Shown piece by piece: positions 38,932 to 47,840 of a DNA stretch of 64,000 nt (positions are counted from its first letter, which is position 1; every line of letters starts with the position of its first letter). A model generated the notes under the pieces. The model was not told the origin of the DNA. It saw only the letters and a list, made by a program, of their open reading frames with translations, and searched no databases. Made by a program: the position numbers and the translations under genes. The stretch is from NCBI RefSeq assembly GCF_011043625.1, contig NZ_JAAKGT010000003.1, positions 62,001 to 126,000 on the forward strand. Direction: 5' to 3'. The DNA is from Caulobacter sp. 602-2 (lineage in GTDB: Bacteria; Pseudomonadota; Alphaproteobacteria; Caulobacterales; Caulobacteraceae).

Positions 38932-39153
38932 CTAGAGGTTCCTGGCGATCCGGTCGGCCAGCGGCGACATATCCCCGCCGTCGTCGTCGAACACGCCGAT
39001 GTCCTCGCCCGTGACCTGGGCGAACAGGTCCTGCGCCGCCTGCGAGGTCGTCAGCAGGTCGAGCGCGGCCTCCGCCTCGTCGCCTGGCCAGCGGTCAAGC
39101 CGTGCGCCCAGCGCCTTCAGGCGCGCTTCGAACAGTTTCAGGTCCATAGCCAC
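38932..39153 (-). CDS. Small acidic protein downstream of and overlapping the ECF sigma gene
   Basis: This protein of 73 residues (MAMDLKLFEARLKALGARLD) reads RWPGDEAEAALDLLTTSQAA and ends IGVFDDDGGDMSPLADRIAR. Its reading frame overlaps the end of the sigma gene by 59 bases, implying translational coupling. Small helical proteins with an RxxRWP...LL..S..A pattern often follow ECF sigma genes in alphaproteobacteria. A role as anti-sigma or co-factor is possible but not shown. Confidence 0.65.
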   Translation of the reverse strand: MAMDLKLFEARLKALGARLDRWPGDEAEAALDLLTTSQAAQDLFAQVTGEDIGVFDDDGGDMSPLADRIARNL

Positions 39154-39760
39154 AGATCTTCTTCTGCCTCTGGAGTCTCGTCTTCAAGGTCTGCCGGCCC
39201 CGTTTCAGGAGCGAGCGGACCGCCTGTTCCGAGCAGCCCATGGCGTCGGCGATTCTACCGACCTCGAGCTCTTCGAAATAGAACAAAGTCAAAGCCTGGC
39301 GCTGGGTGTCCGGCAGCTTGCCCAGGGCCTGCTGAAGGGTCACGGCGACTTCCGACCGTTCGAGGTTGGCCAGGGCGTCGGCCTGCGCCGGCCCTTGCAC
39401 CTCGGCGTCGGCCAGGCGGGTGATGACCTCCTGGCTTTCCGGCACGGCCTTGCGGACGCGGCGGCGGTCGATCGCCTTGTTGACCGCGATGCGGTGCAGC
39501 CAGGTCGAGAACCGCGCCTCCGGCGCCCAGCGCTCGCGGGCGCGCCAGGCGGCAACAAATGCCTCCTGAGCCGCGTCCTCGGCCTCCTGCACATCGCCCA
39601 GGACGTTCAAGGCCAGCCGCCGGACCATCCGCAGATGCCGGTCGACCAGCACCCGGAACGCCAGCTGGTCGCCCTCGCGGCAGGCCAGGAACAGGTCCTC
39701 GTCCGACCGCGCGTCCGCCAGCCCGAACTCGCCCGTCACAGTCATCGCTGAATTCGCCAT
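39095..39760 (-). CDS. ECF RNA polymerase sigma factor next to the flagellar cassette
   Basis: This 221-residue protein has sigma region 2 (LVDRHLRMVRRLALNVLGDV, AEDAAQEAFVAAWRARERW) with FSTWLHRIAVNKAIDRRR, and region 4 (LGKLPDTQRQALTLFYFEEL, MGCSEQAVRSLLKRGRQTL). It lacks a membrane domain. A near-perfect sigma-54 promoter lies 41 bases upstream of its start, and the flagellin-fliD-fliS operon ends just behind it. It is a good candidate regulator of the neighbouring hook and filament operons. An internal ATG at 39745 is an alternative start. Confidence 0.9.
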   Translation of the reverse strand: MANSAMTVTGEFGLADARSDEDLFLACREGDQLAFRVLVDRHLRMVRRLALNVLGDVQEAEDAAQEAFVAAWRARERWAPEARFSTWLHRIAVNKAIDRRRVRKAVPESQEVITRLADAEVQGPAQADALANLERSEVAVTLQQALGKLPDTQRQALTLFYFEELEVGRIADAMGCSEQAVRSLLKRGRQTLKTRLQRQKKICGYGPETVRSAPEGAGRTA

Positions 39761-39800
39761 GGCGATTACTCGCCTCCATCACTGTATCGCAATGGGATTG

Positions 39801-39815
39801 GCAAACAGCGTGCCA
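39801..39815 (-). promoter_or_regulatory. Sigma-54 promoter for the ECF sigma gene
   Basis: On the minus strand TGGCACG-CTGT-TTGC matches the sigma-54 -24/-12 consensus TGGCACG-N4-TTGC at every fixed position. Transcription would start near 39790 and read straight into the ECF sigma gene at 39760. In Caulobacter sigma-54 drives late flagellar genes. Confidence 0.85.
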
Positions 39816-39875
39816 TATATCAGATAACTACATTATTGAATTCACCCGATGCATTCCGAATACATCGGCGAGTTG

Positions 39876-40250
39876 CTATTTTTCAGAACGGAGTTCTTTG
39901 CAGAACGGACGCAACAAGTCGAGTACGATTTGATACGAATTCGACACATCTTTGCGGCGACTGGCGCGAACCATGCTGTCGAGCACGTACTGGTAGAAGC
40001 TGCGCAACGTCCTGCCGTCCGGTCCGGCGGCCGAGAAATCCAGGCTGGTCGACAGCACGGTGAGGATCTGGGTGGCGCGCATGGCGTGTCGGCACATTTG
40101 ATCCAGCCGCCCCTGCTCGTGGGCGAATTTTGCCGAGCCGATCGCCCGATAGAGCTCCTCGTGCACCGAGGCCAGCACGTCGCGCGGGCTGGCGGTGAGG
40201 CGGCTGGAGGCCGCGTAGGCGCTGAACGCCTGGCTGTTAGTCGTCGTCAT
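39876..40250 (-). CDS. fliS: Flagellar export chaperone FliS
   Basis: This 124-residue all-helical protein starts MTTTNSQAFSAYAASSRLTA. It fits FliS: SPRDVLASVHEELYRAIGSA (the FliS helix 1-2 region), then CRHAMRATQILTVLSTSLDF, FYQYVLDSMVRASRRKDVSN and LLRPFCKEL. FliS binds flagellin C-termini and carries them to the export gate. The start overlaps the end of fliD by 14 bases. FliS is not part of the well-studied Caulobacter polar system, which relies on FlaF/FlbT, so its presence is notable. Confidence 0.88.
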   Translation of the reverse strand: MTTTNSQAFSAYAASSRLTASPRDVLASVHEELYRAIGSAKFAHEQGRLDQMCRHAMRATQILTVLSTSLDFSAAGPDGRTLRSFYQYVLDSMVRASRRKDVSNSYQIVLDLLRPFCKELRSEK

Positions 40251-41925
40251 CGCTGCTGGCTCCGAGGATGGCCTTGATCTGCTCTTGAAGGATCTGGGCG
40301 GCGTAGAGCTCTGTCTCCATCGCCGAGTACTTCGCGATCAGCTTGGTGCGGTACGTCTCCGCGCTGTCGCGGATGCTTTCCGATTGCTCGGTCAGGTCGG
40401 CGTTGACCGTGTCGAGCGTGTTGATGCGCTGCTGGATCACGCCGGTGGTGGTGTTGGCGTAATCGCTCATCAGGCTGGTGATCAGGTTGGCGAAGCCCTG
40501 GGTGATCTGCACCGAGATCGTGCCGCTGGTCGGGTTGGCCAGGGCGAAGGACAGGCCCTCGTAGATCGACCCCGTCGCGCCGACGATGCGGCTGCCCGAG
40601 ATCGTGAACAGGCTCGAGTCGCCGTCCACCGACACGCTGGAGATCGCCCCGTCGGTGACGGTGACCTCCAGGTCGAAGTCGTAGGACAGGGTGGTGTCGT
40701 TCTTCAGGAGCTTGAGGTTGCTGTCGCTGGCCTCGAACTTCGTCTCGAAGAAGGCCGCCACGCTGGACAGGTCGGTCAGCAGCAGGTTGTCGAGCGAGGT
40801 CTCGTCCGACAGCTCCAGCTGGTTGGCGCTGTTGAGCGTGATGCCCAGGGCCGACAGGTCGGTCAGCTCGTCGTCCGAGCCCGAACTACCGCCCAGCAGG
40901 GCGTTCAGCTGGCGATTGACGTCGCGCAGGATGCCGTCGGCGAACAGCACCGCGTCGTCGGCCACCGTGCCGTCGGCGCCCACCGTCTGGTTGGTGACGA
41001 CGAAGGCCCGCAGGGCGTTGTAGGCGTCGATGAAGTCGGTGATCGCCGTCTTGATGTCGTCGTAGTTGGCCTCGATGTCGAGGGTGATGGTCTGGCCCGT
41101 CGTGGCCTGCATCAGCGAGATCGACAGGCCGGGAATGACGTCGGTCAGCTCGTTGCCGTCGCTCTCGATCTCGACGCCGTCGATCGTGACGATCGAAGGC
41201 TGGGCTGCCTGCAGCACATTGGCGAAGGCGCCCGTGCTGTCGGTCAGGCCCAGCGACTGGCCGATATCGTCGCCCGAGACCGACGACAGGGTGATCTGCT
41301 GGTTGGTGTCGCTGGTCGACATGACCAAGCGCGTGCCGGTCGAGCTGGTGATCAGGGTGGCGGTGACGCCGGTGGTCGAGGTCTTGGCGTTGATGGCCGC
41401 GGCGATGTCGCTGACCGTCATGGTCGAGGTGACGGTGATCTCGGCGGCGGCCCCGCCGTCGACGCCGATCGAGACCACGCCCGACAGACCAAGCGCCGTG
41501 CCGGCGGTCTGGGCGGTGGACGTCACCTTCATGGCCTTGGCCAGCTGGGTGACGGTGATTTCGTAGGAGGCCGCCACCGCGTCGCTGTCGGCGTCGACGG
41601 CGATCACCGAGGTGGCGTCCGTGCCGTCCGAAGCAGTGAGGTACGCGCTCTTCTCGTCGAAGGCGTTGGTGGTGGTCGTGACCGAGCTGTAGGTCGTGCC
41701 CGCCAGCGCGGTCATGGAATCCGAGATCGCCTGCAGCAGGGTCTGCAGCGACTGGTACGAGGCGATCTTGGTCTCGTTGGCCGTGACCTTGGCGTCGATG
41801 GTGTCGGCGCGGGCGGTCTTCTGGGCGACGGCCGCCTCGATCAGGGAGTCGGTGTCGAGGCCCGAGATCGTGCCGGTCAGATAGGTCGTCGAACCCGAGG
41901 TCGAGACGCTGCTGGTCGTCGTCAT
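40237..41925 (-). CDS. fliD: Flagellar filament cap protein FliD
   Basis: This 562-residue Ser/Thr-rich exported protein has the FliD N-terminus (LTGTISGLDTDSLIEAAVAQ) with coiled coil (KTARADTIDAKVTANETKIA, SYQSLQTLLQAI), FliD central domain (VTQLAKAMKVTSTAQTAGTA, ALGLSGVVSIGVDG) and C-terminal coil ending ETYRTKLIAKYSAMETELYA. FliD caps the growing filament and guides flagellin folding. No signal peptide, as expected for type III export. It is followed by fliS with overlapping frames. Confidence 0.93.
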   Translation of the reverse strand: MTTTSSVSTSGSTTYLTGTISGLDTDSLIEAAVAQKTARADTIDAKVTANETKIASYQSLQTLLQAISDSMTALAGTTYSSVTTTTNAFDEKSAYLTASDGTDATSVIAVDADSDAVAASYEITVTQLAKAMKVTSTAQTAGTALGLSGVVSIGVDGGAAAEITVTSTMTVSDIAAAINAKTSTTGVTATLITSSTGTRLVMSTSDTNQQITLSSVSGDDIGQSLGLTDSTGAFANVLQAAQPSIVTIDGVEIESDGNELTDVIPGLSISLMQATTGQTITLDIEANYDDIKTAITDFIDAYNALRAFVVTNQTVGADGTVADDAVLFADGILRDVNRQLNALLGGSSGSDDELTDLSALGITLNSANQLELSDETSLDNLLLTDLSSVAAFFETKFEASDSNLKLLKNDTTLSYDFDLEVTVTDGAISSVSVDGDSSLFTISGSRIVGATGSIYEGLSFALANPTSGTISVQITQGFANLITSLMSDYANTTTGVIQQRINTLDTVNADLTEQSESIRDSAETYRTKLIAKYSAMETELYAAQILQEQIKAILGASSDDDD

Positions 41926-41942
41926 GGCAATGTCCGGAAAGT

Positions 41943-41974
41943 CGGCGGGAGAGCCTTAAAGGGGCTCCCCCGCC
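41943..41974 (-). promoter_or_regulatory. Hairpin between flagellin and fliD genes
   Basis: GGCGGGGGAGCCCC and GGCTCTCCCGCC pair imperfectly around TTTAA in the 98-base gap after the flagellin stop. It could attenuate transcription so that flagellin is made in excess over FliD. A T-run is absent. Confidence 0.5.
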
Positions 41975-42023
41975 AGTCTGCAGGACGACGGGAGCCAGGC
42001 CCCCGCCATCGCGACACGAGCGA

Positions 42024-42854
42024 CTACTGCAGCAACTTCAGAAGCGACTGGCTCATCGAGTTGGCCTGGCTGAGGGCCGAAATCGCTGCGCTGGTCAGGG
42101 TCTGAGCGTTGGTGAAGTTGGTCTGCTCGGCGGCGATGTCCACGTCGGTGATCGCCGACGCCGCCGACTCCAGGTTCTCGAGCGACGTGGAGATCACGTC
42201 GCCGCGGAACTCGAAGCGCGACAGGGTGGCGCCGACGTCGGCGCGCATTTTCGAGACCGCCGTGATCGCCGAGTCGATCTCGTCCATGGCAGCGACGGCG
42301 TCGCTGGTGGAGGTGATCGAGGTGACGGTCAGGTTCAGCCCCGTGGTGTTGGCCTCACCCAGCTCGACCTTGATGACATCGGTGCTGGACGTGCCGACCA
42401 TGAAATCCACGCCCGTGCCTTCGGTGTAGTTGCTGTCACCGTTGAGCAGAGTGACGCCGTTGAAGGTCGTCGTCTCGGCGATGTCGTTGATTTCCTCGGT
42501 CAGCTGCTCGTACTCGGCGCTGATGTACGACAGGTCGGCAGTGCTCGACGTCCCCGACTGGGCCTGGGCCGTCAGGGAGTTCATGCGCTGCAGGATGTCG
42601 GCGATGTTCGACAGGGCGCCGTCCGCGGTGTTCAGCACCGAAGTGCCGCTGGTCACGTTGGTGGCGGCCTGGTTGAGCACGGTGATGTCGGCGTTCATGG
42701 ACGTCGCGATGGCGAGGCCGGAGGCGTCGTCCTTCGCGCTGACGATCCGCGAACCGCTCGACAGCTTCGCCAGGGATTCGCTCTGCGCGGCCGAATTGTT
42801 GTTCAGGTAGCGCAGGGCGGTGTTGGCGGCCGTGTTGGTGGAGATAACAGGCAT
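42024..42854 (-). CDS. Flagellin
   Basis: This 276-residue flagellin has the conserved N-terminal coiled coil (TNTAANTALRYLNNNSAAQS, ESLAKLSSGSRIVSAKDDAS, GLAIATSMNADI) and C-terminal D0 helix (VDIAAEQTNFTNAQTLTSAA, ALSQANSMSQSLLKLLQ). The central domain is short, as in Caulobacter flagellins of about 273 residues. It heads the minus-strand operon flagellin-fliD-fliS and is divergent from flgD. A promoter-like 48-bp element precedes it. Confidence 0.95.
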   Translation of the reverse strand: MPVISTNTAANTALRYLNNNSAAQSESLAKLSSGSRIVSAKDDASGLAIATSMNADITVLNQAATNVTSGTSVLNTADGALSNIADILQRMNSLTAQAQSGTSSTADLSYISAEYEQLTEEINDIAETTTFNGVTLLNGDSNYTEGTGVDFMVGTSSTDVIKVELGEANTTGLNLTVTSITSTSDAVAAMDEIDSAITAVSKMRADVGATLSRFEFRGDVISTSLENLESAASAITDVDIAAEQTNFTNAQTLTSAAISALSQANSMSQSLLKLLQ

Positions 42855-42935
42855 GTTCTAGTCCGGTTCTCTGTCTGGAGTCCGCCCGGGGGAGAGTCCG
42901 GTCGGGAAGCTGTCCGCCGTTCTGACGGCCTGGCT

Positions 42936-42983
42936 TCGACGGGTTGAACGGGACGTCCGCCGACGATGGGGCGGATTATTTTT
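42936..42983 (-). promoter_or_regulatory. Shared 48-bp promoter-like element, flagellin side
   Basis: Read on the minus strand: AAAAATAATCCGCCCCATC, 14 variable bases, then CGTTCAACCCGTCGA. The plus-strand copy at 43213-43260 has the same 19-mer, the same 14-base spacing with different bases, and CGTTGAACCCGTCGA. The two blocks at fixed spacing look like a two-part promoter; CGTT is a common ECF -10. The element ends 82 bases upstream of the flagellin start. Confidence 0.7.
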
Positions 42984-42984
42984 C

Positions 42985-43200
42985 GCCCCCGGCCCCCTCT
43001 CTCTTTGAGAGAGGGAGGGGCCCGCCGCGGAGCGGTGGGAGGGTGAGAGGTTTCACCGCTCACCGGCAAACCCACACACGCGCGAGCAAAATTCAAATCA
43101 CCGGAAGCGCGCAACGCCCGCGCCTCATCCTGAGAGATTGTAACCTCTCACCCTCTCATGGCTGCGCCATGGGCCCCTCCCTCTCTCGATGAGAGAGGGG
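42985..43200. repeat. Large inverted repeat between divergent flagellar operons (family D)
   Basis: The left arm has CCCCCTCTCTCTTTGAGAGA, then GGGTGAGAGGTTTCACC. The right arm has AACCTCTCACCCTCTC and CTCTCTCGATGAGAGAGGGG. Each arm also contains its own hairpin. It separates the two 48-bp elements, so the whole 42936-43260 block is a large imperfect palindrome. Confidence 0.75.
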
Positions 43201-43212
43201 GTCAGGCCAACC

Positions 43213-43260
43213 AAAAATAATCCGCCCCATCCGGCGCGGAGCCTCCGTTGAACCCGTCGA
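43213..43260 (+). promoter_or_regulatory. Shared 48-bp promoter-like element, flgD side
   Basis: AAAAATAATCCGCCCCATC, 14 bases, CGTTGAACCCGTCGA. It ends 45 bases before the flgD start. If CGTT (43246-43249) is a -10, transcription would begin near 43256, leaving a leader of about 50 bases with the ribosome-binding site CGGAGGGC. Confidence 0.7.
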
Positions 43261-43305
43261 TCGGCGCCCAGAGCGACCGGACCGCTTCACCGGAGGGCTT
43301 TCTCC

Positions 43306-43587
43306 ATGACCACCGTCTCCTCGGCGACGAGCACCAGCACGACCAGCTCCAGCAGCTCGTCCGGCACGCTGCAGCTTGGCACCACCGACTTCCTGAAGCT
43401 GCTGATGACGCAGCTGACCAACCAGAACCCGCTCGATCCGACCGATCCGACCGAGTTCACCAGCCAGCTGGCGACCTATTCGTCGCTCGAGCAGCAGATC
43501 AACATGAACGACACGCTGACGACGATGTCGGACAACATGTCGTCGCTGCTGACCCAGGTTCAGCTGCTCGCCTCGGCCTCGGAATAG
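43306..43587 (+). CDS. flgD: Short FlgD-like hook-capping protein
   Basis: This 93-residue protein carries the conserved FlgD N-terminal region: [51 protein letters not shown]. The family is usually 220-250 residues with a C-terminal Tudor/Fn3-type domain, which is absent. The frame ends cleanly at 43587 and flgE starts 12 bases later, so it is not a visible frameshift. The N-terminal part is what is exported and caps the hook tip, so it may still work. Confidence 0.85.
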
Positions 43588-43599
43588 GGGGCCGCGAGC

Positions 43600-44877
43600 A
43601 TGAGCCTGTCCTCCGCCCTCTCGACCGCCGTCTCGGGCCTGTCCGCCCAGAGCATCGCCCTGTCGGCGATCTCCGAGAACATCGCCAACGCCTCGACCAC
43701 CGCCTACAAGACGACGGAAGTGTCGTTCCAGTCGCTGGTCAGCGGCGCCATGGGCACCAACACCTCGACAAGCTCGGTGGTAGCCAAGACCAACCAGGCG
43801 CTGAACGTCACCGGCGCCATCTCCTCGACCAGCGTGGCGACCAACATCGCCATCGACGGCTCGGGCTATTTCGTGGTCGCGGCCAACGCCGGCGACACCG
43901 GCAGCGACCTCGTCTACAGCCGCAACGGCAGCTTCTCGACGGACGCCAACGGCTATCTGGTCAATAGCGAAGGCTATTACCTGATGGGCTATCCCACCGA
44001 CTCCGACGGCAACGTCCTGGCGTCGAACACCAGCGACCTGACCAGCCTGTCGGCGATCAACCTCGACTCGATCAGCGGCACGGCCAAGGCCACCTCGACG
44101 GTGAGCATGGCCGCCAACCTGCCGGCCGACGCCACGACGGGCCAGAGCTTCGACACCAGCATGGAGGTCATCGACTCCCTGGGCGTCAGCCACACCGTCG
44201 GCCAGACCTGGACCAAGACCGGCGACAACACCTGGTCGCTGACCCTGTCGGACCCGACCCTGACCAAGGACAGCGCCACCACCTCGGGCACGATCAGCCC
44301 CAGCACCGTGACGGTGACCTTCAATTCCGACGGCAGCCTGGCCACGACCGACCCGTCGCCGGTCAACATCAGCATCACGGGCCTGTCGACCGGCGCGGCC
44401 GACAGCGCCATCGTGCTGGACCTCGGCTCGACGGGCGGCACCGACGGCCTGACCCAGTACGCCTCGACCTCCTCGACCCTGTCGATCAGCCCGACCTTCG
44501 AGCAGGACGGCGCCAACTACGGCGAGCTGTCGGGGATCAGCATCGACGAGAGCGGCCTGGTCACGGCCAATTTCGACAACGGGGTCAGCCTGGCGATCTA
44601 CCAGATCCCGGTCGCCACCTTCAGCAACCCCAACGGCCTGACCCACGTCTCGGGCACGGTCTATGACGAGAACACCGCCGCCGGCCAGGTGCACCTGAAC
44701 CTGCCGGGCGAAGGCAACGCCGGCAGCCTGGTGGCCAGCGCGCTGGAGGGCTCGACCACCGACACGGCGACCGAGTTCAACAAGATGATCATCGCCCAGC
44801 AGGCCTATTCGGCCGCCTCGCAGGTGATCAGCGCCACCAGCGACATGTTCGACACCCTGATCCAGGCGGTCCGGTGA
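43600..44877 (+). CDS. flgE: Flagellar hook protein FlgE
   Basis: This 425-residue hook protein starts MSLSSALSTAVSGLSAQSIA and SISENIANASTTAYKTTEVS-like rod motif. It has the internal FlgE/FlgG strand pattern (NIAIDGSGYFVVAANAGDTG, LVYSRNGSFSTDANGYLVNS, YYLMGYPTDSDGN) and C-terminal helix (EFNKMIIAQQAYSAASQVIS, FDTLIQAVR). It is shorter than the main Caulobacter hook protein (about 590 residues as I recall). It sits between flgD and flgK in the same operon. Confidence 0.93.
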   Translation: MSLSSALSTAVSGLSAQSIALSAISENIANASTTAYKTTEVSFQSLVSGAMGTNTSTSSVVAKTNQALNVTGAISSTSVATNIAIDGSGYFVVAANAGDTGSDLVYSRNGSFSTDANGYLVNSEGYYLMGYPTDSDGNVLASNTSDLTSLSAINLDSISGTAKATSTVSMAANLPADATTGQSFDTSMEVIDSLGVSHTVGQTWTKTGDNTWSLTLSDPTLTKDSATTSGTISPSTVTVTFNSDGSLATTDPSPVNISITGLSTGAADSAIVLDLGSTGGTDGLTQYASTSSTLSISPTFEQDGANYGELSGISIDESGLVTANFDNGVSLAIYQIPVATFSNPNGLTHVSGTVYDENTAAGQVHLNLPGEGNAGSLVASALEGSTTDTATEFNKMIIAQQAYSAASQVISATSDMFDTLIQAVR

Positions 44878-45209
44878 GCGTCATGGGCACGATCGAACGC
44901 CTGCACACCCGCGCCCAGAAGGCCCGCCGCGATCCCAAGACGCCCGTGGTCTCGTCGGTCGAGGAGGCCCGCGCCCTGGCCCGCAGCATCGCCGAAGGCC
45001 TCTCGGCCCTTTCGGACGACCAGCGGCTGCTCATGCTGTCGAACCTGCAAGAGGTGCAGGCGACGCTGGAAGACCGCATGGCCAGCCTGGAGACCGAGAT
45101 GGCCCAGGAGCGCGTGCGCATCCAGGCGGTGAACCGCGGCCTGAACGCCCAGGCCGGCTATCGCGGCGGGGTGGCGTCGCTGCGCGACCACCGGCGCCGC
45201 AAGGACTGA
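44874..45209 (+). CDS. Small coiled-coil protein, possible FlgN-type chaperone
   Basis: This protein of 111 residues from GTG 44874 (overlapping the flgE stop, GTGA) or 108 from ATG 44883. It is basic at both ends, with a helical centre (LSDDQRLLMLSNLQEVQATL, EDRMASLETEMAQERVRIQ). The C-terminal VNRGLNAQAGYRGG loosely resembles FlgN ends. Its place directly before flgK and flgL is where FlgN, their export chaperone, is often encoded. The assignment is inference from position. Confidence 0.6.
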   Translation: MSVMGTIERLHTRAQKARRDPKTPVVSSVEEARALARSIAEGLSALSDDQRLLMLSNLQEVQATLEDRMASLETEMAQERVRIQAVNRGLNAQAGYRGGVASLRDHRRRKD

Positions 45210-45213
45210 CGCC

Positions 45214-46941
45214 ATGTCGCTGTCGTCGATCATCAGCTCGGCCTCGTCGGCCCTGTCGACCGCGCAGATGCAGATCGCGGTGGCCAACGCCAACGTGGCC
45301 AACGCCGACGACCTGACCTACACGCGCAAGACGGTCAGCACGAGCGCGACCACGGCCCTGAACTCGGCCTCCAGCGCCACCGTGCAGCGGGCGGCCGACA
45401 CCTATCTGGCCAAGACCGTGGTCAAGACGGCGTCGGCCTCGGGCTACGCCTCGACGATCGACACCTACATGCAGTCCTACGACGCCGTGCTCGGCTCGGT
45501 GGACAGCGGCGACGACCTTTCCAGCCTGCTCGACGCCTTCTCCAGCGCCCTGACCAGCCTGTCGGCCAGCGCCGACAGCGATACGGCCAAGGCCGCGACG
45601 GTCTCGGCCGCCTCGGCCCTGGCGGCGGGGATCAGCAGCCTGTCGGCCTCGATCCAGGACCTGCGCACCCAGGCCAACGCCGAGATCGCCACCACGGTCG
45701 ACACCATCAACTCGACCCTGTCGACCCTGGCCTCGCTGAACGACCAGATCGTCTCGATCACCGCCCAGGGCGGCGACGTCACGGCCCTGCAGGACCAGCG
45801 CGACGCGGCCCTGACCAGCCTGTCGGGCCTGATCGGGGTCAGCAGCTACACCACCTCCGACAACCGGCTGGTGGTCTACACCACCGGCGGCGACCAGCTG
45901 CTGGGCACGACGGCGGCCAAGCTCTCGTACACCGCCTCCAGCACGCTTTCCTCGACCAGCGTCTATCCGACCTCGATCGCGGGGATCACGCTGAACGGCA
46001 AGGACGTCACCGAAAGCCTCGACTCCGGCCAGCTGGGCGCGCTGGTGACCCTGCGCGACGAGACGCTGGTGGGCGAGCAGGCCGAGCTCGACGCCCTGGC
46101 CTCGACGCTGATCGACCAGGTCAACGCCATCACCAACGCCGGCTCGGCCACGCCCGCGCCGACCAGCCTGACGAGTTCGTCCAGCGTTTCCGGCTCGGAC
46201 ACCTTCTCGGCTAGCGGCACGCTGCGGGTGGCCGTGGTCGATTCCAGCGGCTCGACGGTCTCGACCCAGGACATCGACCTGTCGGCCTACTCCACCCTGG
46301 CCGATCTCGTCAGCGCGCTGGACGCCGTCGACGGCCTGTCGGCGAGCATCGGCTCGGACGGCAAGCTGTCGATCACCGCCGACAGCAGCGCCAACGGCGT
46401 CGCCCTGGGCGACATCGGCGCCTCGGTCGGCGCGTCGGCGCAGGGCTTCTCGGACTATTTCGGCTTCAACGACCTGTTCTCGGGCTCGACCGCCGCCGAC
46501 ATCGCCGTCTCGTCCAGGCTGTCGGGCGACTACGGCCTGCTGGCCACGGCGGCCCTCGACACCACCTCGACCCTGGCGGCCGGCGACCGGGCCCTGTCGA
46601 CCTCCGACAGCGCCACGATCGACAAGCTTTCAGCGATGCTGTCGGGGACGCTGAGCTTCGCCGCCGCCGGCGACCAGGGCGCCAAGACCGTCAGCCTGTC
46701 GTCCTATGCCGCAAGCTTCGTCTCGGGCGCGGCCACCCTCGTCTCCAACGCCTCGTCCAGCGCCGCCAGCGCCCTGTCGACCTACGAGGCGGCGACCACG
46801 CGCCTGCAGAACACCACCGCCGTCAATGTCGACGAGGAACTGGCCCTGCTAACGACCTACCAGTCGCAGTACGAGGCCAACGCCCAGCTCGTCTCGATGG
46901 TGCAGGAGCTGTTCGACACCCTGATCCAGATGGTGAACTGA
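45214..46941 (+). CDS. flgK: Flagellar hook-associated protein 1 (FlgK)
   Basis: This 575-residue protein has the FlgK N-terminus (SLSSIISSASSALSTAQMQI, VANANVANADDLTYTRKTVS), a long helical section (VDTINSTLSTLASLNDQIVS, ITAQGGDVTALQDQRDAALT) and C-terminal helix (VDEELALLTTYQSQYEANAQ, LVSMVQELFDTLIQMVN). It forms the first hook-filament junction ring. It starts 4 bases after the FlgN-like gene stop. Confidence 0.93.
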   Translation: MSLSSIISSASSALSTAQMQIAVANANVANADDLTYTRKTVSTSATTALNSASSATVQRAADTYLAKTVVKTASASGYASTIDTYMQSYDAVLGSVDSGDDLSSLLDAFSSALTSLSASADSDTAKAATVSAASALAAGISSLSASIQDLRTQANAEIATTVDTINSTLSTLASLNDQIVSITAQGGDVTALQDQRDAALTSLSGLIGVSSYTTSDNRLVVYTTGGDQLLGTTAAKLSYTASSTLSSTSVYPTSIAGITLNGKDVTESLDSGQLGALVTLRDETLVGEQAELDALASTLIDQVNAITNAGSATPAPTSLTSSSSVSGSDTFSASGTLRVAVVDSSGSTVSTQDIDLSAYSTLADLVSALDAVDGLSASIGSDGKLSITADSSANGVALGDIGASVGASAQGFSDYFGFNDLFSGSTAADIAVSSRLSGDYGLLATAALDTTSTLAAGDRALSTSDSATIDKLSAMLSGTLSFAAAGDQGAKTVSLSSYAASFVSGAATLVSNASSSAASALSTYEAATTRLQNTTAVNVDEELALLTTYQSQYEANAQLVSMVQELFDTLIQMVN

Positions 46942-46943
46942 CC

Positions 46944-47840
46944 ATGATCAGCCGCATCGCCACCTTCGGCCATTCGACGACCATGCTGGCCGCCAGCCTC
47001 AAGGTGCAGGCCAAGCTGGCCGACCAGCAGGCCCAGACGGCCTCGGGCCTGAAGTCGACCACCTACGGGGGCCTGGGCAGCAACACCGGCAGCCTGCTGC
47101 GCCTGTCCAGCCAGAGCAGCGCCCTCACGGCCGAGAACGCCGCCGCCCAGACGGCCACCGCCTATGTCAACGCCGCCTATTCGGCGCTGGGCGACATCGC
47201 CGACCTCGCCACCACCATCAAGACCCAGCTGGCCTCGATGATCTCGAGCACGACGATCGACTCGGCCACCACCGCCCAGTACGCGACCAATTGGCTGAAC
47301 GACCTGCAGGCGCTGATGAACAGCACCTCGGGCGGGACCTACCTGTTCTCGGGCACGGCCGGCGACACGGCCGCCGCCGACTTCAGCGACGCCGACTGGG
47401 ACGCCTCGGCCGGCGTCGACGCCGACTACTACCAGGGCTCGTCGGCCACGCGGACCTTCACCACCACCGACGGCCAGACCATCGACCTGTCGGTCTCGGG
47501 CGGCTCGGCGGCGTTCGAGAAGCTGGCCCGCGCGCTGTCGATGATCATCGCCTCGCCCGACGACAGCGACGTGGTCTCGTCCGCCTACGACCTGGCCGGC
47601 GAGGCCCTGACTGGGATCGGCTCGCTGCAGGAGCAGGTCTCGATCCAGGCCTCCACCCTCGACCGCCTGATCGAGCGCAACGAGGCCAAGATCGAGAGCA
47701 TCGACACCCTGGCCTCCAACCTCAAGGACGCCGACCTCGCCGAGACCGCGGTCCTGGCCACCCAGTACGAGACCCAGCTGGAAGCCATGTACTCGATGAT
47801 CTCCAGCCTCTCGTCGCTGAGCCTGACGAAGTATCTGTAG
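46944..47840 (+). CDS. flgL: Flagellar hook-associated protein 3 (FlgL)
   Basis: This 298-residue protein starts 2 bases after flgK. It has flagellin-like ends: MISRIATFGHSTTMLAASLK, VQAKLADQQAQTASGLKSTT at the N-terminus and DADLAETAVLATQYETQLEA, MYSMISSLSSLSLTKYL at the C-terminus. The middle region is unlike flagellin. FlgL joins hook to filament. It completes the flgD-flgE-flgN?-flgK-flgL operon. Confidence 0.92.
   Translation: MISRIATFGHSTTMLAASLKVQAKLADQQAQTASGLKSTTYGGLGSNTGSLLRLSSQSSALTAENAAAQTATAYVNAAYSALGDIADLATTIKTQLASMISSTTIDSATTAQYATNWLNDLQALMNSTSGGTYLFSGTAGDTAAADFSDADWDASAGVDADYYQGSSATRTFTTTDGQTIDLSVSGGSAAFEKLARALSMIIASPDDSDVVSSAYDLAGEALTGIGSLQEQVSIQASTLDRLIERNEAKIESIDTLASNLKDADLAETAVLATQYETQLEAMYSMISSLSSLSLTKYL

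Follow-up and report, generated by a model that had tools for sequence, protein, structure and literature searches.

Within the 64,000-nucleotide stretch of Caulobacter sp. 602-2 analysed here (contig NZ_JAAKGT010000003.1; hereafter the window), ten genes in two divergent operons (positions 38932-47840) form a cassette that encodes a second flagellar hook and filament together with an extracytoplasmic function (ECF) sigma factor and a putative small anti-sigma factor, Asf. Judging from its sequence, this cassette is an orthologous member of the RpoE6-Asf6-FliC2 kind of flagellar cluster described in Azospirillum brasilense Sp7 (PMC12826043, J Bacteriol, 29 Dec 2025), in a version specific to the Caulobacteraceae. 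We consider it probable that it acts as a module, started by sigma-54 and gated by the ECF factor and Asf, that swaps the distal part of the flagellum, possibly along with its sugar coat, while the standard basal body stays in use; gene content, orthology and the conservation of sites, all of which were observed, form the basis of this reading. What would set the Caulobacteraceae version apart is a predicted sigma-54 control step and, as an extra target, the gene of a probable sugar-coating enzyme.

Gene content of the cassette

Transcription on the minus strand runs from the flagellin gene through fliD and fliS to the ECF sigma gene and an overlapping asf of 73 residues, and on the plus strand from flgD and flgE through a small helical protein gene to flgK and flgL. 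Gene families were assigned by Pfam and NCBIfam profile scans, and the 73-residue gene came from the list of open reading frames. The features are as follows.

38932-39153, minus: asf, Asf6-like small anti-sigma factor gene, 73 residues, overlapping the end of the ECF gene (open reading frame list; Asf6 alignment)
39095-39760, minus: ECF sigma factor gene, RpoE6 orthologue (Sigma70 regions 2 and 4)
39801-39815, minus: predicted sigma-54 (-24/-12) promoter of the ECF gene, TGGCACGCTGTTTGC (11 of 11 core letters; 9 to 12 of 12 consensus letters in 22 of 22 genomes)
39876-40250, minus: fliS, flagellin export chaperone (PF02561, E 3.7e-15)
40237-41925, minus: fliD, filament cap (PF07195, E 2.9e-37; PF02465, E 6e-14)
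42024-42854, minus: second flagellin, FliC2 orthologue, 276 residues (PF00669, PF00700; 54% identity to A. brasilense FliC2)
42947-42974, minus: predicted ECF-type promoter of the flagellin operon, CCGCCCCATC-N14-CGTT after an A-rich tract (motif scans)
43222-43249, plus: predicted ECF-type promoter of the hook operon, CCGCCCCATC-N14-CGTT (motif scans)
42936-43260, no strand: mirror-image promoter region, with 48-nucleotide arms 42936-42983 and 43213-43260 (81% complementary) enclosing 68-nucleotide arms 42988-43055 and 43139-43206 (82%)
43306-43587, plus: flgD, short hook cap, 93 residues, N-terminal domain only (PF03963, E 1.9e-21)
43600-44877, plus: flgE, second hook protein, 425 residues (Flg_bb_rod, D1, FlgE_D2, Flg_bbr_C)
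44874-45209, plus: small all-helical protein in the FlgN position (hidden Markov model match in 22 of 22 cassettes; structure model)
45214-46941, plus: flgK, first hook-filament junction protein (PF22638, E 1.1e-40; TIGR02492 above cut-off)
46944-47840, plus: flgL, second junction protein (Flagellin_C, E 6.4e-5; NF006489 above cut-off)

An initial annotation, made from the sequence alone, had already listed FliS, FliD, flagellin, FlgD, FlgE, FlgK, FlgL and the ECF sigma gene, all of which the Pfam scans recovered, but it overlooked asf at 38932-39153 on the minus strand, although this gene lies inside the start coordinate given for the cassette. It had also called FlgD and FlgE short. This holds for FlgD, with 93 residues against the 236 of the genome's primary FlgD and its Ig-like and Tudor-like domains, whereas FlgE (425 residues) is short relative to the primary FlgE (559 residues) and in no other sense. 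The size of the cassette flagellin (276 residues) is not unusual, as the five other flagellin frames of the genome have 276 to 339 codons. The label FlgN-like, given to the gene at 44874-45209, could not be confirmed: the protein has a confident all-helical model (mean predicted local distance difference test score of 88.1, from 19 sequences) with no fold match in the PDB at E 0.001 or better, and no Pfam FlgN match. Indeed, Pfam, NCBIfam and a Foldseek search of the model against the PDB all gave nothing significant for an identity as FlgN (Bordetella FliT came fourth, with E 1.7), and the two small Azospirillum proteins at the same place share 29-31% identity with it, in no convincing register.

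The size of some parts differs between relatives. At loci L042 and L048, the flgD frames exceed 200 codons, so the portion beyond the N-terminal domain was either lost in the lineage of the window or gained in theirs. The cassette flagellins of L058 (11256-12353) and L059 (11234-12331) are about 90 codons longer owing to extra sequence in the middle of the protein, and the exposed part of the filament thus varies.

Two distal gene sets and a single flagellar base

As the initial annotation had remarked, no basal-body, motor or export genes lie within the cassette itself. A search of the whole genome (5.17 Mb in 33 contigs, rated 100% complete) for other hook and filament genes had been chosen beforehand as the result on which the idea of an alternative set could fall, and it turned up a full primary set, leaving the idea standing. 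Contig C29 carries the primary FliF, FlgE (559 residues), FlgD (236 residues), FliK, FlgK (712 residues) and FlgL (307 residues). Seven proteins of the genome match Flg_bbr_C, namely two FlgE-FlgK pairs and three that we interpret as rod proteins, two of these on contig C5 and one on C29; Flagellin_N is matched by the cassette flagellin, five other flagellins and two FlgL. The cassette and primary versions share 41% identity for FlgE and 29% for FlgK. An independent second flagellum would be expected to bring its own basal body and export gate, and here the genome holds a single flagellar copy each of FliF and FlhA. Two hook and filament sets with a single flagellar FliF and FlhA therefore point to a second hook and filament without a base of its own, and of the two options first put forward, an alternative hook and filament on the standard basal body finds support in this gene inventory.

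One further FliF-type protein and one further FHIPEP export gate are encoded on contig C31. This locus (L065, G000:C31:126001-146000) combines the second YscJ/FliF-type protein with the second gate, and a SctJ-like lipoprotein frame was recognised there by eye (L017); we take it as an injectisome-like type III secretion locus. Could the cassette proteins form a fibre on such an injectisome-type system, or some independent fibre? Apart from this unlinked locus we found nothing in favour of the independent extracellular fibre that had been the other initial option, and we give the idea next to no credence: FlgD, FlgE, FlgK, FlgL and FliD are flagellar families, the C31 system is on another contig than the cassette, and the published relative works in the polar flagellum (PMC12826043).

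Orthology of the cassette, its sigma factor and Asf

For comparison with A. brasilense we used plasmid p3 of strain MTCC4038 (L137), which bears the FliC2 accession WP_035682079 cited in PMC12826043. Identities between the two cassettes are 54% for FliC2, 50% for FlgE, 43% for FlgK, 41% for FliD and 39% for FlgD, and lower for Asf (35%), FliS (27%) and FlgL (26%). Queried with A. brasilense FliC2, the window flagellin scores 267.5 bits at 54% identity, and the other five flagellins of the genome 50.1-55.5 bits at 24-26%. The window ECF factor is the best of 23 genome matches to A. brasilense RpoE6, with 117.6 bits and about 42-43% identity; in 72,556 plasmid records it has four matches at 1e-15, three of them from A. 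brasilense and each within about 2 kb of a cassette-type FliD match. It is not a FliA-type sigma factor with region 3, as Pfam finds regions 2 and 4 only and the sigma70-ECF superfamily is above cut-off, and asf follows the ECF gene directly, just as in the RpoE6-Asf6-FliC2 cluster.

In an alignment of Asf with A. brasilense Asf6 (L137:11786-12079) and 20 others, G16, W22-P23, S37 and A40 are invariant. The protein is short, and no hydrophobic stretch was seen by eye. Its pattern F..L...G....WP....A..LL..S resembles, again by eye, the start of the product encoded after a second ECF gene, which continues into a hydrophobic stretch. Asf could thus be a membrane-free version of that type of anti-sigma factor which responds to a cue within the cell, possibly a chaperone or the export of Asf itself, and this is the least supported step of our proposal. 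The second-best RpoE6 match of the genome (G000:C12:481952-482488, L143) is an ECF gene adjoining a gene for an EF-hand-like protein, a pair that resembles cabp-sigV of C. vibrioides as presented in the accessible part of PMC13171946; the gene next to this ECF gene, which bears a question mark there, looks by eye like a membrane anti-sigma factor.

Distribution and conservation

Of 249 Caulobacteraceae genomes, 22 have a FliD_C match: 17 belong to the same genus (the one studied here among them) and five to four other genera. The control Caulobacter vibrioides has none. We fetched up to 20 kb around FliD for all 21 other carriers. The nine main genes occur in the same divergent order in 22 of the 22 genomes, and so does asf when sought with a hidden Markov model built from the cassettes (18 of 22 with a single-sequence query). 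Among named relatives, those with the nearest FliD (96-97% identity) are Caulobacter endophyticus, C. zeae and C. radicis. Eight of the 21 other loci have flanking genes in common with the window; in the remaining 13, none of the seven sought was present within the fetched 20 kb, so the cassette sits at several chromosomal places.

Such patchiness (22 of 249 genomes) and the missing flanking genes at 13 of 21 loci would also suit a relic, a flagellar fragment obtained by lateral transfer that is now silent or in decay. We regard this as very unlikely, considering that none of the 22 genomes lacks the main genes even though identity in the most distant copies falls to 28% (FliS) and 37% (FlgL), and that the promoter motifs are kept amid an otherwise variable intergenic region. 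A phage origin was likewise considered and rejected, with no FliD match in 50,697 phage records.

Across the class, 87 of 385 genomes have FliD_C. We sampled 40 FliD loci from 38 genomes, mostly from the top of the match list: the ECF gene, sought by hidden Markov model, stands beside flagellin, FliD and FliS in seven of them, six with hook genes too, and was not found in the other 33, some of which are cut by contig ends. In the flagellin tree, the 30 cassette rows (22 from the family and eight from outside) fall with five further rows into one clade with 100/100 support, and the five primary flagellins of the genome lie apart from it (100/100). Four of the five further rows belong to L112 and the fifth is a second copy from L099, both being loci that carry the same ECF gene. 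L112 (genome G291) combines this ECF type with four flagellins of the FliC2 clade, FliD and FliS, and its filament may consist of several flagellins under such a sigma factor. The 18 named loci include C. endophyticus (two), C. zeae, C. radicis and C. hibisci, as well as Brevundimonas, Phenylobacterium and metagenome bins; a link between the cassette and a plant lifestyle is only a lead.

Paired ECF-type promoter motifs

The initial annotation had pointed to a promoter-like element shared by both operons. Indeed, with two mismatches allowed, AATAATCCGCCCCATC occurs exactly twice in the window, facing both operons, against a mean of 0.00 in 100 shuffles. In the region between the operons, the best match to CCGCCCCATC-N(13 to 15)-CGTT has a 14-nucleotide spacer at 44 of 44 places (22 genomes, both directions), with 11 to 14 of 14 letters. 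In 100 shuffles of each, none was as good for 39 of the 44; 10 were for L040 toward flgD, 15 for L043 toward flagellin, and one or two for three others. Since we derived the motif from the window and close relatives of it, the real test lies in the distant genera.

We then counted the exact form CGCCCCAT-N15-CGTT over 42 genomes, the 22 with the cassette and 20 of the genus without it. It has 66 matches, at 41 of the 44 cassette sites, 18 times elsewhere in cassette genomes and seven times in cassette-less ones; a reversed control pattern has nine. In the genome studied here, the strict motif with this spacer is found only at the two cassette sites. An extra match on contig C30, with a spacer one nucleotide longer, was rejected as a regulon member, the next frame looking unrelated to flagella by eye. 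The inter-operon region as extracted spans 304 to 1709 nucleotides among close species, with the promoter motifs kept and the rest variable. Between the promoters of the window (42988-43206) lies a 68-nucleotide inverted repeat (82%, with an 83-nucleotide gap) containing CCCTCTCT..GAGAGAGGG hairpins, perhaps an inserted repeat element.

The published fliC2 promoter of Azospirillum, CGCCAG-N16-CGTGAG, has a twin before flgD in all three Azospirillum-type loci; six of the 12 matches to CGCCAG-N16-CGTG in these loci are the places upstream of fliC2 and flgD. The dual promoter therefore looks old, and the twin before flgD is a direct prediction for Azospirillum.

A predicted sigma-54 site ahead of the ECF gene

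The sigma-54 promoter that had been noticed beside the ECF gene held up well: TGGCACGCTGTTTGC at 39801-39815 on the minus strand matches all 11 core letters. It is the sole match in the 64-kb window at one mismatch or fewer; since 1.72 matches are expected by chance, this is little proof in one genome, and the weight of the site comes from meeting it again, between fliS and the ECF gene, in every one of the 22 genomes. The sites in these gaps agree with the 12-letter consensus at 9 to 12 positions (10 or more in 21 of 22), and shuffled gaps scored as well in at most 6 of 200 cases in 21 genomes and in 24 of 200 in L059. At nine outside loci with the same ECF gene (L084, L087, L090, L091, L093, L099, L112 and two Azospirillum plasmids), the best match in about 430 nucleotides around the ECF start has 7 to 9 of 12 letters. 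The weakest family member, L059, is with 9 of 12 no better than the best outside loci, L091 and L093, and the two groups differ in how their scores are distributed. Inspection by eye for an FlbD enhancer close to the ECF promoter gave none.

These conserved sites support the proposed relay from sigma-54 to the ECF factor, a step that is read from sequence. For A. brasilense, transcription of the ECF gene together with fliC2, from the fliC2 promoter, was called likely, the promoter mapped being that of fliC2, and a fusion of the region upstream of rpoE6 had negligible activity in E. coli with RpoE6 (PMC12826043). Such a fusion would miss a sigma-54 promoter that depends on its own activator, and what counts here is the sequence result. 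In the window, the conserved sigma-54 site argues for a start of the ECF gene's own, with read-through from the flagellin operon a possibility.

An unlinked FlmG-like gene

Three of the 18 strict matches outside the cassette (in genomes G203, G154 and G101) precede a gene that resembles flmG. In G203 and G154 they lie directly before a gene for a tetratricopeptide repeat (TPR) protein beside an rpoB-like frame, as judged by eye. Its orthologue in the genome studied here is at G000:C11:41076-42758 (74% identity, 561 residues matched). The product contains TPR, has no Pfam glycosyltransferase match, and was compared with FlmG through a homologue in the same genome: it is 43% identical over its length to the protein encoded beside FlbT and three flagellins, which by place and make-up we take as the flagellin glycosyltransferase FlmG. 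FlmG itself is a flagellin glycosyltransferase of 596 residues with an N-terminal TPR part and a C-terminal GT-B half (PMC7591256).

This second FlmG-like gene turned up in ten of the 22 cassette genomes and in none of the 20 without a cassette, which is suggestive and not a measured distribution; the ten proteins are 58-100% identical to that of G203. In all ten genomes, (A/C/G)CG(A/C)CC(A/C)AT(T/C/G)-N14-CGTT lies upstream, with an in-frame start 30 to 69 nucleotides after its first base in eight; in L152, where another frame was named, and L141, where none was, the motif still stands directly before the matched FlmG-like protein. Counted over both strands, the relaxed pattern was seen 0 times in 1.8 Mb. 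Nine of the ten carriers are close species that share the cassette's chromosomal place, and G101 is more distant. Two Azospirillum plasmids encode, after asf6, a TPR protein with a similar C-terminal half (38-40% identity). An Azospirillum-type motif precedes a small neighbour gene of this protein in A. lipoferum, and L084 has one at a similar distance; none was found before the TPR gene that follows asf6 in A. brasilense. On this comparative evidence, a flagellin glycosyltransferase as part of the module is likely but not settled.

A proposed mechanism and its alternatives

How might these parts work together? Together, the ten genes would supply the distal flagellum as an exchangeable unit (hook cap, hook, junction pair, flagellin, filament cap, chaperone and small helical protein) and a switch for it. 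We posit that sigma-54 RNA polymerase would start the ECF-asf pair, and that Asf would hold the ECF factor until relieved. Once freed, the ECF factor would transcribe both mirror-image operons from the CCGCCCCATC-N14-CGTT promoters, as well as the unlinked second gene of FlmG type, whose product would sugar-coat the second flagellin. The parts would most likely be exported via, and mounted on, the one flagellar basal body, giving a hook and filament with a different surface. The control scheme follows from the conserved sites and the Azospirillum experiments, in which RpoE6 drives fliC2, and Asf6 binds RpoE6 in two-hybrid assays and represses (PMC12826043); assembly on the shared basal body, promoter use, glycosylation of the cassette flagellin and the action of Asf are what we infer from sequence and analogy.

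The main competitor is a mixed filament, in which the cassette flagellin, junction and cap proteins would be minor components of the primary flagellum that alter its stiffness or surface. In A. brasilense, FliC2 enters the polar filament (28 kDa, or 35 kDa when glycosylated) as a minor component, and its deletion slightly thins the filament and leaves swimming intact (PMC12826043). The cassette, however, is a whole set with its own hook, hook cap, junction pair and filament cap; its FlgE and FlgK share no more than 41% and 29% identity with their primary counterparts, and 227 of the 249 family genomes, like the C. vibrioides control, are without FliD. Moreover, in A. brasilense lacking asf6 the large polar flagellin band is missing, filaments are thinner and likely contain almost only FliC2, a near-pure filament that looks like a swap (PMC12826043). 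We therefore judge a mixed filament unlikely, though it deserves more weight than the relic or the fibre considered above.

Several points weigh against a swapped distal flagellum on the standard basal body. The evidence in this organism comes from sequence. Deleting fliC2 or rpoE6 (non-polar) in A. brasilense does not alter swimming on plates, FliC2 is termed a minor flagellin, and RpoE6 also affects glycerol and fructose genes, beyond the cassette (PMC12826043). The runner-up ECF factor in our RpoE6 search is close, at 110.9 bits, and the case for orthology rests on gene order and not on the ECF score. Support for a single cassette clade in the FlgE tree is moderate, the branch that sets off the 30 cassette rows having 81/92. 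Lastly, the cassette motif was itself read from the window, the -35 part of the FlmG-like sites departs from it (the genome studied here has GCGACCAATT), and base composition predicts 1.7e-5 matches of the relaxed pattern per 100 nucleotides, or about 1.8 per genome; as this pattern was drawn from the same sites, its constant spacer and its location are fair evidence, and the number of matches is not.

A bolder version of the swap, which we find distinctly doubtful, treats the whole outer flagellum as one switchable unit: a hook, filament, cap and sugar-coating enzyme of its own would be exchanged as a set on the common motor, timed by a checkpoint rebuilt from an ECF sigma factor. Sigma-54 would start ECF-Asf once the basal body is under way, and Asf, as a membrane-free miniature of an ECF anti-sigma factor, would be removed by export through the finished basal body or by binding to a free chaperone, like FlgM for FliA.

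Caulobacter is a model for ordered flagellum building, in which the late flagellar genes are under the control of sigma-54 with FlbD and of FlbT, and no dedicated late sigma factor is known to be involved. If the proposed swap is true, several Caulobacter species own a second distal flagellum with a dedicated sigma/anti-sigma pair, and a tractable host would allow tests of two hooks on one basal body, of what a 73-residue anti-sigma factor senses, and of a sugar coat switched with the filament.

Comparison with known systems

The Azospirillum cluster has the same content (flgD, flgE, small protein or proteins, flgK, flgL, fliC2, fliD, fliS, ECF gene and asf) and the same promoter plan, in which an A-rich tract is followed by CGCC.. 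and then CGT.., yet it forms one row of genes where the window has two divergent operons. Its promoter core is CGCCAG-N16-CGTG instead of CCGCCCCATC-N14-CGTT, FlgD has 219 residues in A. brasilense against 93, and Asf 98 against 73. The predicted sigma-54 promoter before the ECF gene belongs to the window, the best matches being 7 of 12 in A. brasilense and 8 of 12 in A. lipoferum.

Two hook and filament gene sets per genome also occur in dual flagellar systems such as the subpolar and lateral flagella of Bradyrhizobium and Fla1 and Fla2 of Rhodobacter. These are two whole flagellar systems each, whereas the genome studied here has one flagellar FliF and one flagellar FlhA; the accessible part of the Bradyrhizobium paper PMC5591287 holds nothing on this cluster. 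In the FlaF/FlbT/FlmG flagellin system of C. crescentus, an FlmG-type TPR protein serves the flagellin (PMC7591256), and the genome studied here has such a gene by FlbT; what the cassette brings in addition is FliS and FliD, and a further, unlinked FlmG-like gene stands behind a predicted cassette-type promoter.

Another related system is the FliA/FlgM pair of enterobacteria, a sigma factor with a small anti-sigma factor for late genes (PMC12826043). Here too, a dedicated sigma factor with a small anti-sigma factor would drive the junction, filament, cap and chaperone genes. FlgM is exported through the flagellar gate, and export of Asf is conceivable only by analogy. The sigma factor of the window differs in being of ECF type, in having its gene under a predicted sigma-54 promoter, and in that it would also drive the genes for the hook and the hook cap.

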